From Tubiluchus corallicola (taxonomy: Eukaryota > Priapulida > Priapulimorpha > Priapulimorphida > Tubiluchidae): DNA of 64,000 bases. Positions 17,249 to 61,150 of this stretch are shown here, in pieces. Location of the stretch: the NCBI GenBank assembly GCA_030141605.1, contig JAQGDQ010000072.1, forward strand, positions 553,001 through 617,000, in the 5' to 3' direction. Made by a program: the position numbers and the translations under genes. Each line of letters opens with the position of its first letter. The stretch's first letter is position 1. The notes under the pieces were generated by a model. It saw only the letters and a program-made list of their open reading frames with translations. It made no database searches and was not told the DNA's origin.

Positions 17249-20200
17249 CTATGGGAATATACCTTTGTCTTTCTGCCAATCAAATGTTTCACTTGTTAGA
17301 TCAGAAAATGATGGACGTTCTTCAGGAAAAGCATTCCAACATCTTAGCATTGTTTTGTATATTCGATCAGGACAGTTATTTGGTTTTGCAAGACGGTCAC
17401 CACTTTCCATTTTTTTCTGATGTTCCTCTGGTGAGGAAGCGAGCTTTGGGAACTGTCCATTTGAATAGATTTCCCACAACGTAATCCCGTAACTAAACAC
17501 ATCTGCTTTTACCCCATGTTTTAGATCTTTGAAAACCTCTGGTGCATACCAATAGATTGGCAGTTTACGTTCTTTATGTAAAAAGCGATAATAATCTTTA
17601 CTCGACTCAGAAAACCTAGACAGGCCAAAGTCACTAATTTTAACGCATGTGTCAGTAAAAACTAACACATTTCGAGCAGATAAATCTCTATGCACCACAT
17701 TTCGAGAAGACAAATATTCCATACCCTTAGCTATGCAATGAGAAAAGGCCACTTTGTATTTAATACCTAAACCTCCATTGGCTTTATGCCTTTTCAGGTA
17801 CCCATCTAGGGATCCCTGCCGTGCGTATTCAGTTACAATAGCAATTATGTGTCCACCATCTAAAATGACACCTTCGAATTGCAAAACATTTGGATGCTGA
17901 AGCTTGCTCATCACCTTTACTTCATCCTTTAACTCATCGGGGCTTGTTCTCCCCTTAATAAGATATTTAACAGCAACTTCTTGGTGTTCATTTGTGCCAT
18001 CATTCCACATGTAATAATAAACATCACCAAATGCACCTTGTCCTATTTTCTTTTTACCAGATAAATCCACTTTAGGTATGTGCTTAATGTTCTCTAGTAA
18101 CTCGTCAATACTATTCTCAGTCATACCAGTACGCATCGGTAGGTAACTCACACCCATCTTACCAGCTTCACCATTGACAGTTCTTAATTGCAAAGTAGAT
18201 TGTTCCATTAACGTTGGGATAATGCTTGGATTTCTACCTGCTGGCAAGCTTTCACTCAACATAACAACCCTTTCATGAATACTGCGAAGGATTTTCATTG
18301 GACCAAGCCGTTCTGCCGGGTTCGCATTCCAACATTTTAGCAGCACATTTTCGTAAATTTCAGTATGATTGGAAAAATCTGGTTCGGGAAGACGGTTCTG
18401 AGTACGATAGAAACGAATAGCCTCAGAGCGATCAGTTGGCTCAGGTTCTTGAGCAAAAGAAAATATTTCCCAGAATGTTGTCGCACAGGCCCATATGTCA
18501 TCTTCTGCTTTAAGAGAAAGTGGGTTTTGCTGATTTTCTAAAGCTATCCAATGCACTCTATTGCGATAAGCACTTGGTAAACCAGGATCAGCTAATTTTA
18601 CTCTAAATGGACCTTGGCCTTCAACAACCATCACATTATTGAGTCGAATGTTTCCATGGACTATTTTCAACATGTCTAAATAGTTTAACGCTTTGGCAAT
18701 GCAACCGCATGCTTCAAAGAGTTGCAGCAGTAACTGGTCGTTTGGATAATGAAGAAGTTTCTCTTTATTACCACGGAGATACTTATCCAATGAACCAAGC
18801 ATCAAAGGTTCCATGACAAGCATCAGTGGGTGAAGACACACACCAAACACATGCACTAACTGTGCATCATGTGTATAAAGAAATCGATCGCAACCGCTTT
18901 GAAACTCCTGTGACAGTTGTAAAGAAATGTGTTCCTGTTTCAAATGTTTTACTGCCACTGGTATAGCTTGGCCATCAGCAATTCTCCAACGCGAATCTTT
19001 ATTGACAATGGAGAAACGTCCTTCAGCAACTGCATCTCGAGACCGCGAAAAGATGATATCATTGTATTTGATCAATGCTGGATCATCACTGCCACCATCA
19101 CGACAACACTGACTAGCAGGTGTACTTTCTTTATGCTTTTTACACAGTAAAACATCGCTATCATCATAATCACTAGGATGAATAAAAAGGTCTGGCATTA
19201 GTTTTTGTTTTGCTTGATCCATATAAAACTCCACCAGAGTGCGAATGTCAAGAAATTTTAAGCCATCCTGGCGGTATTCTAAAGCTACACTGCCATCTTG
19301 TAATCGTTCTATATCAAAACGTAATGGAGATTCAGGGCCATTCTCAGTAAGTCTTTCCAAAAAAAATTTGTCATACTCGGCAGGGCTTTGGCGCAATAAA
19401 TAAAAACCGGCTTTGCCGTGAGACTTCTCCTTCAGCTTATGTGTTGCAAATTTTACACTCACTGGTCCATGAACTCCCTTAAGTGCTGAATCTCTCAGTG
19501 AAGGTGTGATCAGCTGCGAACAAAGGTTATGAATGAAATTCTTTGTTAACCTGTAATAACCATCTACAATAGTGACAAATGACTCAGCAATAGCAAAAGA
19601 AGAAAATTTTAGCAAAGTTGGACAACCTTGAGAATGGCCAACTTCTACTCCAATGCTATCATCATCTTTGGATATGACTTTTAAGGTCAAGGTTATGAGT
19701 TCTTCTATCTCACAGACCTGCCTCCAATTTTTTGAGTTACACAATCTGATTCGTATGCCCGGTTGCTTAGGATGAAAAGGACTAATCTGAACAATCGCGG
19801 GCAAAAAATCATATTCAATTGCTGGTAAAGGTGACTGTGCTTGTGAAAATGTTCCACCCCGATTCTGCGTACCAAGTGTTCCATGACTAGCTTCAACCAC
19901 ATGATGCTCTTGAACGTAAAATATTTCCTGCAAGTAATCCATGTGAGAATCACCACTCAGAAGGTATCTTATGCAATGTTCTCTAAAATATGACTGAGGT
20001 TGATTCTCAGTTAACTTATTTACCTCTTCCAACTTCTGTTCCAGCTTCCTTTTCAATCCGTACTTGCGTAAAAATCCAAGCTCTGAAACAACATGTCTTG
20101 GAAGTACATCAAATATATTATGTTTCTTCAACAACTGCTTAACAGTAGGTATATTTTCATTTCTCATGACACCTAACAAGTCCATGAGAGCAAACCCAAA

Positions 20201-20788
20201 AGACGTCTTCTGCAGTTCATCCTGTGTTACTTTTCCCAAAGACACAGCGTCAATATGACCATGAAGCAAATCATAACGGCATTGACTAAACAGGTAATTG
20301 ACAACCTGTGGACTCAATTTTCTAAAGTCAAGTACTTTGCTTGTTGAGTCAAAGCGAAATGAATGCTCCTTTAAATTTGGCACCATAAAGCAAAACCTGA
20401 GCTGTAGCACTATTGCAGGTGCATCGTCCGAACTGTAGATCACATGACCAGGATGAATCCAGGCACCTTTACCTTCAACTTGTGGTTGATAAAGCTGAAA
20501 CAAATTCTTTTCCAAAGGTCCTACATTACACATTTCATGTTTTGCAGCTGAGATCAGTAACTCCTCAGCTGTCACACTAGGCTTCTTTACCTCTAATTTA
20601 AAAACATTTCCTTCTGCAGTAAATAGTTCAATAATAACAGTTGAGGATACACTTTTTCCGATTTTGCTGCGTTTATCATGTGCAGACTCGTCTGTGACAC
20701 TCTCCCTTGAACCTCGTGTTGTTGCTGAATAAGGTCCCGCATGTATTGCACTTACATCATTATTGGCCTCTGCCATTTTTTCTACCAT
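17249..20788 (-). CDS. JAK: Janus kinase (JAK), complete single-exon coding sequence
   Basis: Cytoplasmic tyrosine kinase that binds cytokine-type receptors and phosphorylates STATs. The 1,179 residues show the full JAK order: FERM (about 50-430); SH2-like (about 440-535) with GFYLLR, Arg466 being the phosphotyrosine-binding arginine; JH2 pseudokinase (about 570-845) with VAVK Lys614 kept, HGN at 711-713 in place of HRD, and DPG at 734-736 in place of DFG, the usual JAK pseudokinase state; and JH1 kinase (about 905-1175) with GQGAFG 916-921, Lys941, HRDLSARN from 1033, DFG 1053-1055, tandem activation-loop tyrosines 1066-1067 and WYAPE. All catalytic residues are intact. There are no introns in the coding part. 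An acceptor-like ttttttctag ending at 20805 suggests a spliced 5' leader. Met1 and Met5 are both possible starts. Confidence 0.97.
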   Translation of the reverse strand: MVEKMAEANNDVSAIHAGPYSATTRGSRESVTDESAHDKRSKIGKSVSSTVIIELFTAEGNVFKLEVKKPSVTAEELLISAAKHEMCNVGPLEKNLFQLYQPQVEGKGAWIHPGHVIYSSDDAPAIVLQLRFCFMVPNLKEHSFRFDSTSKVLDFRKLSPQVVNYLFSQCRYDLLHGHIDAVSLGKVTQDELQKTSFGFALMDLLGVMRNENIPTVKQLLKKHNIFDVLPRHVVSELGFLRKYGLKRKLEQKLEEVNKLTENQPQSYFREHCIRYLLSGDSHMDYLQEIFYVQEHHVVEASHGTLGTQNRGGTFSQAQSPLPAIEYDFLPAIVQISPFHPKQPGIRIRLCNSKNWRQVCEIEELITLTLKVISKDDDSIGVEVGHSQGCPTLLKFSSFAIAESFVTIVDGYYRLTKNFIHNLCSQLITPSLRDSALKGVHGPVSVKFATHKLKEKSHGKAGFYLLRQSPAEYDKFFLERLTENGPESPLRFDIERLQDGSVALEYRQDGLKFLDIRTLVEFYMDQAKQKLMPDLFIHPSDYDDSDVLLCKKHKESTPASQCCRDGGSDDPALIKYNDIIFSRSRDAVAEGRFSIVNKDSRWRIADGQAIPVAVKHLKQEHISLQLSQEFQSGCDRFLYTHDAQLVHVFGVCLHPLMLVMEPLMLGSLDKYLRGNKEKLLHYPNDQLLLQLFEACGCIAKALNYLDMLKIVHGNIRLNNVMVVEGQGPFRVKLADPGLPSAYRNRVHWIALENQQNPLSLKAEDDIWACATTFWEIFSFAQEPEPTDRSEAIRFYRTQNRLPEPDFSNHTEIYENVLLKCWNANPAERLGPMKILRSIHERVVMLSESLPAGRNPSIIPTLMEQSTLQLRTVNGEAGKMGVSYLPMRTGMTENSIDELLENIKHIPKVDLSGKKKIGQGAFGDVYYYMWNDGTNEHQEVAVKYLIKGRTSPDELKDEVKVMSKLQHPNVLQFEGVILDGGHIIAIVTEYARQGSLDGYLKRHKANGGLGIKYKVAFSHCIAKGMEYLSSRNVVHRDLSARNVLVFTDTCVKISDFGLSRFSESSKDYYRFLHKERKLPIYWYAPEVFKDLKHGVKADVFSYGITLWEIYSNGQFPKLASSPEEHQKKMESGDRLAKPNNCPDRIYKTMLRCWNAFPEERPSFSDLTSETFDWQKDKGIFP

Positions 20789-22090
20789 TAGCTTGCAGCA
20801 TAATCTAGAAAAAATATTTAATTACAGTCATTCCGACAAGGGTAAATTCTTAGTTTCATTAAAGAATGAAAAGTGCAGGAATACACGAACAACTTTTTTA
20901 GAAGGCACAGCTAGGCAGTGCCATGAGAAATAATAACTGATATTCATAGGTGTGATAACAATTTTTAACGTAATACACAGGAATTAATTCCAATAAAAAA
21001 GTTGATAACAAAAAAGTGTATTGGTTATAGATATATTTACAAAAAAATAATTTTACAGAAGTGAAACAGACCTAGCACACATACTAATACCATATTCATT
21101 TTTAATATTCAAATCAGAACTATTTAATAAAATATCCTAATGATCTGTTCCATTTCTGTTAAATTAACTTTTTTTAAATATATCTATAACCATTACATGT
21201 GTGTTTGTACAAAAAATGTATCGGTTATAAATATATTTAAATATTAAAACATACAAAGGGTGGGTTCTGCTTCTTCATACTAGAAACTTATAATCTCAGG
21301 CACAACACAGGGCAGTATAGTGGGGCTTCAGTTGTTCATTTTACCCTGAAGTTCTTGATGCTGTCACTTGTAACCTACTGAGGATTTGAAATTGCACCAA
21401 TCATGTATTATTGTGTTGTGTTATTGACCAGTTAACAAACAGTCCTACAAATGGCCACAATATAGCTGCAATTAAATGCATCATGCTCCATTTAGGCTTT
21501 GGCAATCCTCCTCTTCAGTATTCCCTTGATGGTACCCCTCTTATCCATGAAGTAATGAATATAATGACTTAAATGGGTTACAGTATCTAATTTGAAACTC
21601 CGAGCACATTGTAAAAACATAGTATCTAAGACATTTTGTATGGTAAATATATTTTTTTGGTGTTTCTTCAGTAAAAACAAAATGCATTTTTGACAGCTTA
21701 TGTGCATGCCTTGTAAGAGTACTGCTGAACAATGTGGTCCCCACACAATTAACAAGATGTAGACAACATTGAAAAGCTCCAGAGATATTCTTCTCGCAGG
21801 CTGCACCAATATGTCAATTTAAATTATATAAATGTTTCTTACTTAGAAAGACTACCCAGATCAAAATTGCATCGATTGGAATTAAGTTTTTCCTGTGATC
21901 TAAAGATCGTACACAAAATTTGTCTTAAAATGGTGGGTCTAAATTTGGATAATTTTTTTCCAGTATGCTTCAATCAAACGTGTAGTCACAACTTTAAACT
22001 GTTTACACCTTTTTCAAGATAAAATGTCTCAAAATTCTCATTTGCCAACGGAGTTGTAAATGGATTTGGAATGCTCTGGGTTGTTGTGTA
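20789..22090. other. JAK 5' region and upstream flank
   Basis: A probable 5' leader exon runs from 20804 to the ATG, after a pyrimidine-rich acceptor on the minus strand. Further up, a short motif around ttggttatagatatattta occurs near 21015, inverted near 21180, and in variant form near 21220, so the DNA can fold locally. A minus-strand open frame at 21492-21809 is not recognised. Confidence 0.4.
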
Positions 22091-38874: not shown

Positions 38875-39906
38875 TTATTCATTGCTAAAAAAATCATAAT
38901 CTAATATTTGCATATACTCTGCACACTCTCGTTCTATAAGTTTTATTTCATTTTTGCTCAGGATCTTCTTCCATTTGTTGATGTGAGATTCTGGATTTTT
39001 TCTCAGTGTGCTCAGCTCTTTGCTGTAAACTTCAAATAGACTATCATTAAAAGAATTCTCCTGTCCGTGAGCCACCCTCTCTAAAAACTCTGTTATATGT
39101 TGGCTATAAGAAAGCCCAGCGAAATTCATGATCTCTTTTGTCACATCCTCGAAATTTTTTACAAGTTCCTCATATCTGACAATCACCATGATGGATTTTG
39201 GGATTTCCTTCAGCATTGCTGTACGAAAATTTTCTAGCATGTCTGCACACAACTCTTTAACGGTAGAGATGACTTTCCCAAATCCCAGTGTTTTTCTCGA
39301 AGCAAACACGGCTCTGGGATCTCTGATTAAATAAATGATTTTGGTGGTGAAATGTTCTTCAAGCAACGGGAGCAGATCTTCAATGTGCAAACGCGTAGTT
39401 TTGACAACATTAAGCTTGTGTTTTGCACATATCTGACTGAGTACCTCTTCTGTCATTGAGGTTATAGAGTGACCACAGTTGGTTATTCGCACTGTTTCAA
39501 CTTCGTGGTCACAGTTGGCAGCTAAAGCCAATTTTCTGCTGCGGGCAAGGAACTTGAACCAGTTCACCCAGCCCAGCTCCTGCCAGTTCCTATTCATAAA
39601 AGCAACTTCGGTATAATTACATGTCGCAATATTTCTGATCACTTTTATAGCCTGAGATATAGTTTCATTTTTGTAAGGGCGCTGGCGGACCCTCCAGGGT
39701 GTGAGATCATTTGTTCGAAACCCTGATACAATTACTAGTGGTTCGTATAAATACAAGACGTCAGGATGATTGTTGAATATTTCTCCCAGCAAGCTAGATC
39801 CACTTCTATGATAAGCTACACCAAAATAAAAAATAATTAAATTTAATAATAAGTAATACAGACACCTAAACCTATGTGTGACTGGTAAACCTGTAAGATT
39901 GAACAT
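38875..39906 (-). CDS. Carbohydrate (Golgi-type) sulfotransferase
   Basis: Transfers sulfate from PAPS to a glycan, normally in the Golgi lumen. The 343-codon frame has the 5'-phosphosulfate loop HRSGSSLLGE at 33-42, followed by IFNNHPDVLYLYEPL as in CHST1/3-like enzymes, and the 3'-phosphate motif RDPRAVFASR at 195-204. Other family features are RYEELV near 244 and a C-terminal KWKKILSKNEI helix region. Residues 13-31 are hydrophobic and could be a signal anchor, but they directly abut the PAPS loop with no stem. An acceptor-like tattttggtgtag before 39815 suggests that these residues may be intron read-through and that an upstream exon is missing. It appears intact otherwise. The family is firm; the substrate is unknown. 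Confidence 0.9.
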   Translation of the reverse strand: MFNLTGLPVTHRFRCLYYLLLNLIIFYFGVAYHRSGSSLLGEIFNNHPDVLYLYEPLVIVSGFRTNDLTPWRVRQRPYKNETISQAIKVIRNIATCNYTEVAFMNRNWQELGWVNWFKFLARSRKLALAANCDHEVETVRITNCGHSITSMTEEVLSQICAKHKLNVVKTTRLHIEDLLPLLEEHFTTKIIYLIRDPRAVFASRKTLGFGKVISTVKELCADMLENFRTAMLKEIPKSIMVIVRYEELVKNFEDVTKEIMNFAGLSYSQHITEFLERVAHGQENSFNDSLFEVYSKELSTLRKNPESHINKWKKILSKNEIKLIERECAEYMQILDYDFFSNE

Positions 39907-56525: not shown

Positions 56526-56566
56526 ACAAATTCGTGGTTGAGGCAACGCCATTACTGAGACGTGGC

Positions 56567-56575
56567 CACGGCAAG
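56567..56575. repeat. 9-bp target-site duplication, left copy
   Basis: cacggcaag directly precedes the left terminus GGTGAGGAC. The identical 9 bases follow the right terminus at 59831-59839. Confidence 0.85.
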
Positions 56576-56629
56576 GGTGAGGACTACTTTGCGTACTTCG
56601 CGTTGAGCGCACAGGATCATGGGTAAAAT

Positions 56630-57520
56630 GATGTTATTCGATGTGTAAACAAACCCTCGTGGCAAATTACATTATCGTCAGTTTCAACAACAATTTTAAT
56701 GGTGTAGAGTGCTGCTACTAATAAAAATGGTAAGAAATTGTAGCTGTAAACTAGTTGACAATTTTTCTGACAAGTAGAAACTGAGTTTTGCAAATCTCAG
56801 TTTGGAACGCTATTCAGTAAACTAAAATGCATTAGTGATTCATTCGTTAATTTAGTCTTGCATAACTAAAACTATAGATGCCTTCAAGTTACCAGAAGTT
56901 TCTAGTGACTAAAAGCTAAATATGGTACTCTCCATCTTTCTGGTGAAAGTGCAAAGTATTTTTTTTATAAATATGAAAGCTGAATAAGGAAACTTGTAAA
57001 AAACTCACATTATTATTATTTAATTCATATTTATACTCACATTCATATTATTTTTTTAATTTGCTATATTGGGTTCATTTTATTAGCTTTGTTTATTGTA
57101 AATATATACAGATTAGTACTAACTTTTTCAGGAATAAAAGTAATATACTAAGTGGTCCACTCACATAGCTTGGGTGGCATCAGTCATTTAATTTTACGGA
57201 AGGAAGAACAGCATGAGATAGTGGACATGTTGCCAACAGGAATATCCATTGACAAAATTGGACAACTTTGAAGCTAAAGTGTGTTGAGAGAGGAAATTTA
57301 CTTTTTACTGTACATAAAACATAAGTAGACATTGACAAGCTGCAAGCATCGACTTAGCATTATTGTAATTCAAAAGCTGTGTTACTGTTGTGGCAAACTG
57401 ATATGGTTGCAATTTTAACATGTGTAATATGAAGTCTGCTTTAGCTGTTCGTATTGTAAATGCTTGTCCAATTGTATGCGTAAATCAAACACTGTGACAT
57501 ACAATAGCAGTATTAACTAA
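56630..57520. other. Interior of the transposon, left part
   Basis: AT-rich, with no recognisable coding sequence. An atg followed by gtaaga near 56727-56735 on the plus strand is a possible but unsupported start-plus-donor. The part adjoining 57526 may be the 3' region of the GPCR transcript. Confidence 0.35.
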
Positions 57521-57525
57521 AATCT

Positions 57526-58230
57526 CTATAAGGATTTGAAATTTGGCTCCCCTGATTTACATATCAACATGTGTGCAAAACCTAGTTTAAAATGTTTGTG
57601 TTTCCAAGCATATATCAATGGATTGGCCATTGAGTTAATAAAAACCATAGCATAGCAAAAAAGCTCCACAGAGAAGTTTTCTTTTCTGTCCGTGGCATAC
57701 ATGAAAAACATGCCTGTTACATTAAGTGGCATCCAGCAAATTGCAAACGTCCCTGCAACGACGAACATTATCTTTGCAGACTTGATGTTTTGCAGTGGCT
57801 GAAAACTCTGTTGCGAAACTGGATTAATCTGTCTTTGGTGACGATTTGCAATTAACGTAATTCTTGCATAGCCAATGAAAACAAACAACATTGCTGTGAT
57901 ACCATATATGTCAAAATCAATGAAATGCATTGGATGTGTCATATTGTAAAAAGAACAAAAAACAAATCGTCTTGTCATGCGTTGCCCATACAAAATAATC
58001 AATCCAAGAAATGCTGCCCATATCCATGTTATAGCAATGAGAATAACAATGTGCGAAGACTGCATTTTTGAAAGGAAAAATGGATGTACTATTGCAATAT
58101 AACGTTCCGCCGTGATCACGATAAGGGTTGTGATTGAACATGTGCCACAAATAAGTGAGACCACCACAATAAATAGGCACTTATTTGCAGAAATAACATT
58201 CATGTGCAAGACGCCGTCTACAAGCATCAA
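57526..58230 (-). CDS. Class A (rhodopsin-type) GPCR, TM3-TM7 portion
   Basis: A membrane receptor frame of 234 codons without lesions. It begins just before TM3 and reads to a natural C-terminus. Class A landmarks are all present: Cys18 (position 3.25), exactly 25 residues before Arg43 of the ERY motif (42-44); Cys92 in the second extracellular loop, its disulfide partner; CWMP at 165-168 in TM6; NPLIY at 203-207 in TM7; then a basic helix-8 segment (HKHFKLGF). TM1 and TM2 are absent, and an in-frame stop lies just upstream of 58230. The frame opens with TTG-ATG; an acceptor-like gatgcttgtag would join at D5 in phase 1. It lies inside the transposon at 56576-59830. Whether it is a functional exon, a captured fragment or a truncated gene is unresolved, and the ligand is unknown. 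Confidence 0.8.
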   Translation of the reverse strand: MMLVDGVLHMNVISANKCLFIVVVSLICGTCSITTLIVITAERYIAIVHPFFLSKMQSSHIVILIAITWIWAAFLGLIILYGQRMTRRFVFCSFYNMTHPMHFIDFDIYGITAMLFVFIGYARITLIANRHQRQINPVSQQSFQPLQNIKSAKIMFVVAGTFAICWMPLNVTGMFFMYATDRKENFSVELFCYAMVFINSMANPLIYAWKHKHFKLGFAHMLICKSGEPNFKSL

Positions 58231-59588
58231 TCACCCACTGACGAATTAAGCAACAGTCAATTCGACATTGTTTGCAACTTTTTATATTTCAGAATAGCAG
58301 TGACAACAAGCATATTTAGAACAACTCATAAACTGCAATAACCTAAGTAATTCACTAATGATTCCACATGCATAGCAAACATGCATTAGCATTCCAGCTA
58401 CATAAGTATTGGCAGCAGTTATTATAAAATGTGTGTGATCCATTATAAAATATTCTAGAGGCTACCAGCAATAACACAAATAAACCAAGACAGCAAGTGT
58501 AGTATTCCTTTGTGTGCTGCTTTGTAAATACAAATAACTGCTGGTTTTACTAGTCTACTAGAAAACATGTATACAAGAAACTACATTACAGATAGCTGAA
58601 AAATATCTGAAAAATGAAATAATCATGAGCCATTTATCTTTTGTGTGGGAAAGAATTGTAAACTTGTAAAAACTTATGTTAACTCTCTCTGCTATTTTCT
58701 TATGTGAGGAAAAACTTTTCATTAGTAAGGGTCAGTATAACAGTAAAAATTTCACAACTGCAGTCATTTAAAATCGAAGACCACAAAATTATTTGTGAAT
58801 AAGACAAGAGTGAGCTGCCAAAAACTGCTCTTAATAAACTAAGACAACAGAAATAGTGGCACACTTTTGCAAACAGCAAAAACAAATGTTTCTTTATGTG
58901 CAAAAGACAACATTGTACTGACAAAGAACATTTGCACAGAACCCGATGTAGGTCATACCAAAGTATATAAATTATTTAAGGATACATGTGCAAATAAAGT
59001 TTAACAGGTAAGTGCATGTTCTTTCCACACTGGACTTTGACTTTCATTGGTTCTGCATCATTGCATCATAAAGTTCTTATTTTCCAAAATAGGAGTTTTA
59101 AAAGCAAAAGTCTGTCTCACTAATCAATATCATTTGGCTATATAACATGCAGATATAGGTACTATGCTAAACGTGCAGTATTTTAGTAGTTCACAACTTT
59201 CAACACCAGGTTAGCACTTATTTTTCATATCATATGCAGTTTCATATCATGTCATAGTAGTTTTTCTTATCATATGCAGTGTTTATGAATATAGGCCCCT
59301 GAATGACTATTAATATAGTAGTACTATTATAACAGAATTCAGACAACAAAATTCAAAAGACTCTGCATAATTCGATTCTCTGTAATTCAGAATATCGTTC
59401 ATCTCAGACAGATTCAATAGTATGGACTTCTTTTTTTATATCTTAATGCTTAAAGCAATTTAGGCCAACACTGCCTTTCAATTCAAAATATTTTACTAAT
59501 TATTATTAACATATAATTTGCAAACGCCTGCCATGTGCCACAACTCACTTGGCTATGACACTATAGTACTCCCAGACTAGACACTTAC
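58231..59588 (-). other. Interval between first-exon candidate and GPCR frame
   Basis: I searched the minus strand for a TM1-TM2 exon (GN..V and L..AD motifs) and saw none. The open frame at 58700-58924 does not look like a receptor. It is probably intron if the two flanking exons belong together. Confidence 0.4.
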
Positions 59589-59721
59589 CGACGTCATCGC
59601 TAAATCGCTTCTGCTGCGACTCAACTACATAATGAGTTGTAGTATCCAATTCATGTTGTTTGATCACTCGAACGCAATCAATCACATCGGATACTACAAC
59701 AGTCTTGTATGCAGCAGCCAT
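59589..59721 (-). CDS. Candidate first coding exon of unknown gene
   Basis: Just inside the transposon's right terminus, the minus strand has ATG at 59721 (context gaacagaaaATGG) and 44 open codons starting MAAAYKTVVVSDVIDCVRVI and ending QKRFSDDV, then G and a consensus donor GTAAGT (59588-59583). The exon ends in phase 1. The composition is protein-like with no low complexity, but I do not recognise the family. It could be the N-terminus of the element's own gene or of a captured host gene. The GPCR frame at 57526-58230 has an acceptor-like site in the matching phase. Confidence 0.5.
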
Positions 59722-59830
59722 TTTCTGTTCTTGGTTGAATTTCGCGCGTACCCATAGTCGTGTGCGCAAAATCCGAATCATGCCCACAATTCTGTGCGCT
59801 CAACGCGAAGTACGGAAAGTAGTCCTCACC

Positions 59831-59839
59831 CACGGCAAG
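59831..59839. repeat. 9-bp target-site duplication, right copy
   Basis: cacggcaag immediately after the right terminus, identical to 56567-56575. Confidence 0.85.
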
Positions 59840-61150
59840 CGGCCACCGAAGGAAAAACCGTTAATGACGTCATTAAAATCGGATACATACTAAGTAGATG
59901 ACATACTAAATAGTGCAACATTATAATTTAGAAATTTATGTAAGTATCTAAATCTGTGCAATAATCAAACTTAAAAAAATAAAACAAGAAGTTACAACTG
60001 TTTCTACTTTTAGATGTGCACATATCAGTTAAAATCTTCCGTTTGTTGTAAATGTCTAACTGTAAATTTAGCATTTGCTGTGTTTGTAAAACTACCAAAA
60101 AAATAAAAAAACGTTCGTTTCGTAAAAAATAAAACAAGAACATTAAATTATGTAATTTTTTCATGTATTTTTTAATAATAAAGTTATAAATTACGCACAG
60201 ATTTTCGGAAATGCACAATGCTTACGTCTATGATTTGCTGATTAACCCATTTTGCAATCAGGAAAATACGCAGTTTAGTTTAGTTTATGGCTTTGCAAGT
60301 CAGATAAAAACAACTATTTGATTAACTTTAAATAAGGAGAAAACAAAATGTTTCTCGCCAGTTTTTATAAATCTCAAATGTGGTCAAAATTAATTCAAAT
60401 GTGGTCAAAACTTACGTTATACATCAATGTAATATTAACTAATTCTGCGCTATTTTTCTGGTTATAATCATGGTTAAAAGATGCTTTTGGGACTTATGTG
60501 ACTCGGGCATTCAACATAAGGGTCGTTTATGAATAGAACAGCCAAATTTATTCCATTTCCGTAGCCTGACAAACGGAAAAATGCAAAAACTGAATAAATC
60601 TTGCAGACGATCACATGATCAGTTAACATAGAAAAATACATCGCAGGCTTGTTGTTCGTATGTTTAAAGGCAAGAGAGACTTAATATTTTTGTTGCTCAT
60701 TTATTGTAAAGCAAGGCTAACTGGCTTAGTTTCTTTATTATACTTATGTCTCTGTATTTTGTAGTGCTTTGAAACTTCGTTTCTACATTCTGTTTAAATT
60801 GAAAAGTCATTTTTTGGCTACTTGAAGTGTTAATTTCGTGTAAAAATAGCTGCTGCTCTGCAAATTGGTGTTTATGAAAAAGTGCAATCAGTTTATCTGC
60901 TGTTAGACATTAGTTGCGACTGTCATGTTGTTTAGTTTAGTTTAGCTTAGATAGTTGTTGTCAAGCGTGAGCTGTTGTCCCGAATGCTGCTCAGCGTGCT
61001 GACGAGACTAATATGTTTGACGTCAAATAGGAGGAGGAGTTGTAAGCGAAGGATTAGGGTGCGTAAGGTTACAACTTTTGCTCTGTTTCTACGAAGTGTT
61101 GTGCCTTCGTCACTCTATGATAACTAATCTTGGGTTTGCTGATTCCCCAA
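59840..61150. other. Intergenic or retroelement 3' flank
   Basis: No gene recognised. The mixed-composition part near 60955-61130 could be the long terminal repeat or 3' untranslated part of the Ty3/Gypsy remnant that follows, but I could not find a matching second copy. Confidence 0.35.

Follow-up and report, generated by a model that had tools for sequence, protein, structure and literature searches.

Among the closest described relatives of the locus reported here are the Pack-MULEs of rice, reportedly described by Jiang et al. in 2004. Published work describes MULEs as elements with 8-11 bp target duplications and additional host-derived ORFs (PMC6446971). Our element resembles the rice Pack-MULEs in its MULE termini, in the long duplications around host gene sequence and in its multicopy spread (PMC6431247, PMC6446971), and it shares with plant Pack-MULEs the absence of transposase from the copy under study, whereas it differs from them in its animal host, in the 5.6 kb with two receptor genes held by its longest copy, and in sister copies where the cargo still has pieces of transposase next to it. 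Captures of genes by TIR transposons of animals are also in the literature (PMC8277862, PMC5225508), and thus the kind of event is known. About 20% of the derivatives of Muta1 in Aedes aegypti contain host gene sequence, for example 276 bp of a kinase gene; Muta1NA3 and the other host-fragment derivatives are animal MULE derivatives like ours, but hold a fragment between termini, whereas the present case offers whole genes, GPCR-free copies and both breakpoints (PMC5225508). Drosophila Ssk-FB4 is likewise a multicopy host-gene capture; the element is MULE-like, its 9-10 bp duplications are distinct, and one breakpoint shows a 2-bp microhomology. The difference is that Ssk-FB4 is expressed and reported to be under positive selection (PMC8277862). 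Turmoil-1 of C. elegans, another animal DNA transposon with transduplicated coding fragments, differs in that its fragments lie within its inverted repeats and come from other genes (PMC2572040). A survey of 370 animal Pack-TIRs states that none of its 100 reference genomes yielded a Pack-MULE (PMC8277862), and the available portions of three MULE papers hold no comparable case (PMC13359780, PMC8616336, PMC10015627). The first-pass annotation of this DNA knew of no description of receptor genes captured by animal cut-and-paste elements, and no description of a MULE with captured GPCR genes was found among the matches listed from open-licence PMC papers.

The window is the whole 64-kb stretch of contig C984 that was analysed, in the Tubiluchus corallicola genome (343.5 Mb, 2344 contigs). 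Its positions 56576-59830 hold a 3255-bp transposon, which we interpret with high confidence as a transposase-less internal-deletion derivative of a MULE that had earlier taken up a portion of a class A GPCR cluster of the host. The features are listed below in window coordinates.

56567..56575, unstranded: left target site duplication CACGGCAAG, seen in the sequence and as a variant single copy at the empty sites C1198 and C403
56576..56623, plus strand: left terminal inverted repeat, 48 bp, 44/48 identity to the right terminus
56576..57416, plus strand: the MULE's own left part, common to the GPCR-free copies C1890, C2055, C2011 and C1891
57411..57416, unstranded: left capture junction AATTTT, microhomology of MULE and host array, located by aligning host genes and MULE copies that lack the GPCR
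57411..59171, minus strand: captured host block of receptor 3' flank, receptor fragment and upstream flank, best C2286 matches 88-91% identical (one C2286 array match extends to 59183)
57526..58230, minus strand: class A GPCR fragment, end of TM2 to TM7, 234 open codons, Pfam 7tm_1 1.4e-25
58231..58232, minus strand: scar of a 22-bp deletion in TM2, also in copy C1868b
58257..58259, minus strand: TGA at parental codon 55, TGG in four intact genes and TGA in 3/3 element copies compared
58320..58324, unstranded: joint at which about 380 bp of parental sequence is missing (start codon and most of TM1), from comparison with the parental genes
59170..59183, unstranded: joint of captured block and MULE right part; the transposase region is absent in the window copy, and larger copies hold transposase pieces there
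59171..59830, minus strand: the MULE's own right part, from sequence comparison
59589..59721, minus strand: putative first transposase exon (MAAAYKTVVV...), with a GTAAGT donor after it
59783..59830, minus strand: right terminal inverted repeat, 48 bp, 44/48 identity to the left terminus
59831..59839, unstranded: right target site duplication CACGGCAAG, seen in the sequence

Elsewhere in the window, the minus strand carries a 1190-aa intronless frame of JAK type with FERM, SH2 and two kinase stretches (17249-20821), which is a retrocopy or an intronless gene, and a sulfotransferase-like single-exon frame of 343 aa (38875-39906). A 45-bp tandem repeat is present seven times at 671-985 and is open throughout in one frame, and several LINE-like pieces of reverse-transcriptase-like frames were read by eye between 30056 and 53721.

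The termini are flush with the 9-bp duplication on both sides and the duplication is perfect, so that the terminal structure reported in the first-pass annotation, down to the 44 identical positions, is reproduced in full. CACGGCAAG occurs twice on the plus strand of the 64-kb window, on both flanks of the element, and a single time on the minus strand. With 75 bp of the left end as query, the genome gave at least 26 matches, both element ends counted, and the terminus is a genomic repeat; all counts from genome searches given here are lower bounds. No match to the terminus was found in viral contigs or prokaryote genomes, and none to the receptor in viral contigs. Perfect flush 9-bp duplications, within the 8-11 bp typical of MULEs, are present at five of the nine loci with both ends examined, namely the window, C420 (ATGTGTAAG), C1915 (GAAGTGCTC), C698 (CACACACAC, within a CA repeat) and C666 (GAATCAAAG, in a 343-bp short form). 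The two flanks of C1809 match at 6 of 9 bases, and no duplication was seen at C1522, at C1833, where the outermost bases differ from the terminus, or at C1868, where one end is degraded. The terminal inverted repeats of four other copies counted are identical at 42-45 of 48 positions. C1833 and C1820 show 100% identity across 11,201 bp and were therefore counted as one locus; they are probably a single locus assembled twice. The large MULE copy at C1833 also contains a tandem array with a period of about 82 bp (C1833:86688-87719), as judged from self-matches, and the C1868 copy is damaged, with a LINE-like insert in its left part in addition to its degraded far terminus.

The joined flanks of the window element match C1198 and C403 continuously across the joint, with 72 and 71% identity, and each of these sites has a single variant of the target word (7/9 and 6/9 bases, respectively). 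Because a repeat of coding-like character forms the target (it reads RGRGKRPPKE in C1198), the two sites read as paralogous and not allelic empty sites; the search for sites with one copy of the target was thus successful within the same genome, but for related places and not for the locus itself. One frame of the joined flanks (window 56530-56575 and 59840-59960) reads RGHGKRPPKE, and the repeat is AT-hook-like.

Membership in the MULEs is further indicated by transposase remains in the sister copies C698, C1915 and C1833, one of which (C1833) holds a fragment of the ZSWIM1-3 RNaseH-like domain (PF21056, 7.9e-10, above the cut-off) whose resemblance to the MULE domain PF10551 is weak (0.011, below the cut-off), and another of which (C1915) holds a SWIM finger (PF04434, 7.8e-6). 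Among the matches listed, the catalytic fragment is present only at C1833/C1820, while the 131-aa SWIM-bearing frame is represented by pieces at least at C1915, C1903, C698 (with a piece that does not span the finger itself) and three C1616 positions; C1890 has a further, weak match. Searching the genome with these two fragments returned no complete transposase and no complete DDE. PF10551 matches at least seven other places in the genome, none of them on contigs where this MULE family was seen. The window copy has no transposase beyond the candidate first exon, the peptide of which has a near-identical counterpart in C698. Thus, as in a Pack-MULE, host gene sequence lies between MULE termini, its host parent is located elsewhere, and the transposase gene is absent from the window copy.

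The 234-aa frame at 57526-58230 on the minus strand belongs to the class A (rhodopsin-like) GPCR family by its 7tm_1 match, and a protein search of the genome with it (1e-10; 150 of 739 candidates scored) gave at least 145 matches. Among the matches listed, the closest receptors outside elements are three tandem genes, g1-g3, on C2286, with 86-87% amino acid identity, and the next members of the family reach only 46-47%. These are the full-length parents that the first-pass annotation had suggested looking for: intact, single-exon genes that are complete from start to stop at 308, 305 and 305 aa. The nearest solved structures are GPR119 and adenosine A2A receptors (7.1e-18 for the fragment, 2.8e-23 for g1), which identifies the family but assigns no ligand.

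The carried receptor is not intact. The window copy has lost the start codon together with most of TM1 and a portion of TM2, so that seven TM helices in one open frame are not present, and the frame once described as lesion-free is so only from the end of TM2 onward, with the 22-bp deletion and an in-frame TGA upstream. A full-length receptor with TM1-TM2 in another exon was considered and rejected, as the parents are single-exon genes and the missing part is deleted. Parental codon 55 is TGA in the window, C1833 and C1868b, and TGG in g1, g2, g3 and C1868a; since all three element copies compared carry this stop, the most simple explanation is that the receptor was probably already broken before it spread. 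This comparison covered four intact genes and three element copies, and left out C485 and five deletion copies with partial frames. W142 shows a different pattern, being TGA in C1833 and C1868b and TGG in the window, which conflicts with the two deletions that the window and C1868b have in common and does not fit a simple tree. The dN/dS values are 0.48-0.76 between element copies versus 0.31-0.48 between host genes. Nonsynonymous changes account for 26/35 (p 0.45), 23/33 (p 0.24) and 28/42 (p 0.10) of the differences in element pairs, against a neutral expectation of 0.76, and for 34/60 (p 0.0006), 32/54 (p 0.004) and, for g1-g2, 26/39 (p 0.11) in host pairs, two of three of which look constrained. 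Hence, the nonsynonymous-share test saw no selection on the carried frame between element copies. The comparison of the window with g1 departs from neutrality (32/54, p 0.004), but includes host divergence before capture. In a substitution-only simulation, the 234-codon frame stayed open in 42-30% of runs at 25-35 random changes. The window copy probably has no receptor role.

It is very unlikely that the element is instead a living MULE-GPCR fusion, in which the transposase first exon would be spliced to the receptor and a partial receptor expressed. The proposed splice would run from a phase-1 donor after 59589 to a phase-1 acceptor TAG/AC upstream of TM3 (exon from 58217), and donor and acceptor do lie on one strand with matching phase; however, phase agreement is expected by chance in one of three cases, the acceptor was picked by eye, and the changes in the element copies look neutral. 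A receptor with five helices is also unlikely to fold. That animal Pack-TIRs are partly transcribed, frequently as chimeras (PMC8277862), speaks in favor of such a fusion.

The capture itself can be followed through four GPCR-free copies of the same MULE, C1890, C2055, C2011 and C1891 (the last three examined over 1 kb each), whose contigs are absent from the at least 145 GPCR matches listed. These copies align with the element up to about ...GGTTGCAATTTT and then continue in MULE sequence that is common to C1890, C2011 and C1891, and to C2055 for about 85 bp, whereas in the GPCR copies the receptor gene's 3' flank comes next. The host genes read AATTTTAACATG (g2) and GTTTAACATG (g1) at this joint; therefore, a microhomology of a few bases marks the left junction. 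On the right, C1868, C698 and C1915 exit the host block at ...GCACCTG/TGAGTC and rejoin the C1890 sequence; in C698, this point and the stop codon of the transposase are 23 bp apart. The two capture points are 325 bp apart in C1890, and because the GPCR-free copies retain the pre-capture sequence, both breakpoints are resolved. In a 407-column tree, C1890 groups among the GPCR copies with support of 0.69-0.89, and thus its lack of GPCR sequence could in principle be secondary; however, its gap sequence is common to C2011 and C1891. The same breakpoints make it highly improbable that a MULE inserted beside a GPCR gene carried the gene along by end bypass, using a far terminus and requiring no internal gap repair. 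Host genes would likewise end up between MULE termini in this way, but it predicts host DNA adjoining one terminus, whereas MULE sequence flanks the captured block on both sides and is continuous with the GPCR-free copies at both breakpoints.

The longest captured block (C1868:9928-15521, 5.6 kb) is colinear with C2286:679350-685188 at 86-88% identity and carries two receptor genes, of which C1868a is intact (305 aa) and C1868b is broken. The first receptor in the block matches g1 best (89%). The donor is not one exact gene, as the receptor part is closest to g1 and the block order fits g3-g2. The high identity of element and array would also be expected if the C2286 array derived from element copies and the receptors had originated in the transposon, but we consider this extremely unlikely. 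Similarity of C2286 to the element is confined to the captured part, with no match to the MULE's own parts and no terminus match among the at least 26 listed; its genes are intact and stand within the large GPCR set, and the element copies compared have a derived stop in common. That the locus is an ordinary host receptor gene whose ends resemble inverted repeats by chance, a reading in which only the open TM3-TM7 frame fits, can practically be dismissed in view of the number of terminus matches, the flush duplications at five loci, the related empty sites, the transposase remains in sister copies and the existence of GPCR-free copies.

Gene capture by a cut-and-paste element, as first proposed, is thus upheld by the parental array, the GPCR-free copies and the duplications. 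The left junction is identical by alignment at eight loci (the window, C1868, C1833, C1522, C698, C1915, C420 and C1809, with 9 bp absent at the joint itself in C1833), and a genome search match crosses it at C485. Because at least nine distinct loci have it in common, the history reads as one capture followed by transposition and internal deletions. The interiors of other copies contain this GPCR block or pieces of the transposase. Two losses are common to the window and C1868b, namely the 22-bp deletion and that of the start codon with most of TM1. A deletion that removed TM3-TM7 save the last codons has one and the same left edge in C1522, C698, C1915, C420 and C1809; four of these copies resume at one place, 624 bp on, and C1522 resumes farther. 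The window copy also lost the transposase and the second receptor gene. The suggested spread of a receptor fragment therefore holds as a past event, but not for an intact receptor.

We infer that the element broke directly after the stop codon of its transposase, that the repair copied in a multi-kb stretch of the GPCR array, and that a short microhomology joined the captured block, with about 325 bp of MULE replaced. The transposase gene would not have been interrupted, and thus the first carrier could have moved itself. The carrier would then have transposed and lost parts of its cargo and transposase, with the receptor pieces decaying about neutrally. Difficulties for this explanation are the missing duplications at 4 of 9 loci, the lack of a complete transposase, the W142 conflict and the inexact donor. 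A bolder version, which we regard as unlikely, is that a self-mobile MULE, by gap repair behind its stop codon, took up a two-gene receptor block with its transposase unharmed, and that C1868a would be a working receptor gene at a new locus made by that element. The intact C1868a (C1868:11324-12241) sits in a damaged MULE copy outside the parental array. Paired with host genes, it shows signs of constraint (p 0.014, 0.018 and a value printed as 0.0), although this constraint may predate the capture.

The window element is a real, well-resolved and new animal member of the Pack-MULE kind. Since the carried receptor piece is a decaying remnant, it is an unusually readable case of known gene capture and not a new type of element. 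How TIR elements pick up genes is described as an open question, for which gap filling and fork switching have both been proposed (PMC8277862). A single genome here contains the donor array, elements free of GPCR sequence, the longest capture and shortened descendants, so that each step and its place in the order are legible to the base, in this case in an animal MULE. With genes of a tandem GPCR cluster as cargo, such capture is also a route for moving receptor genes off their array.
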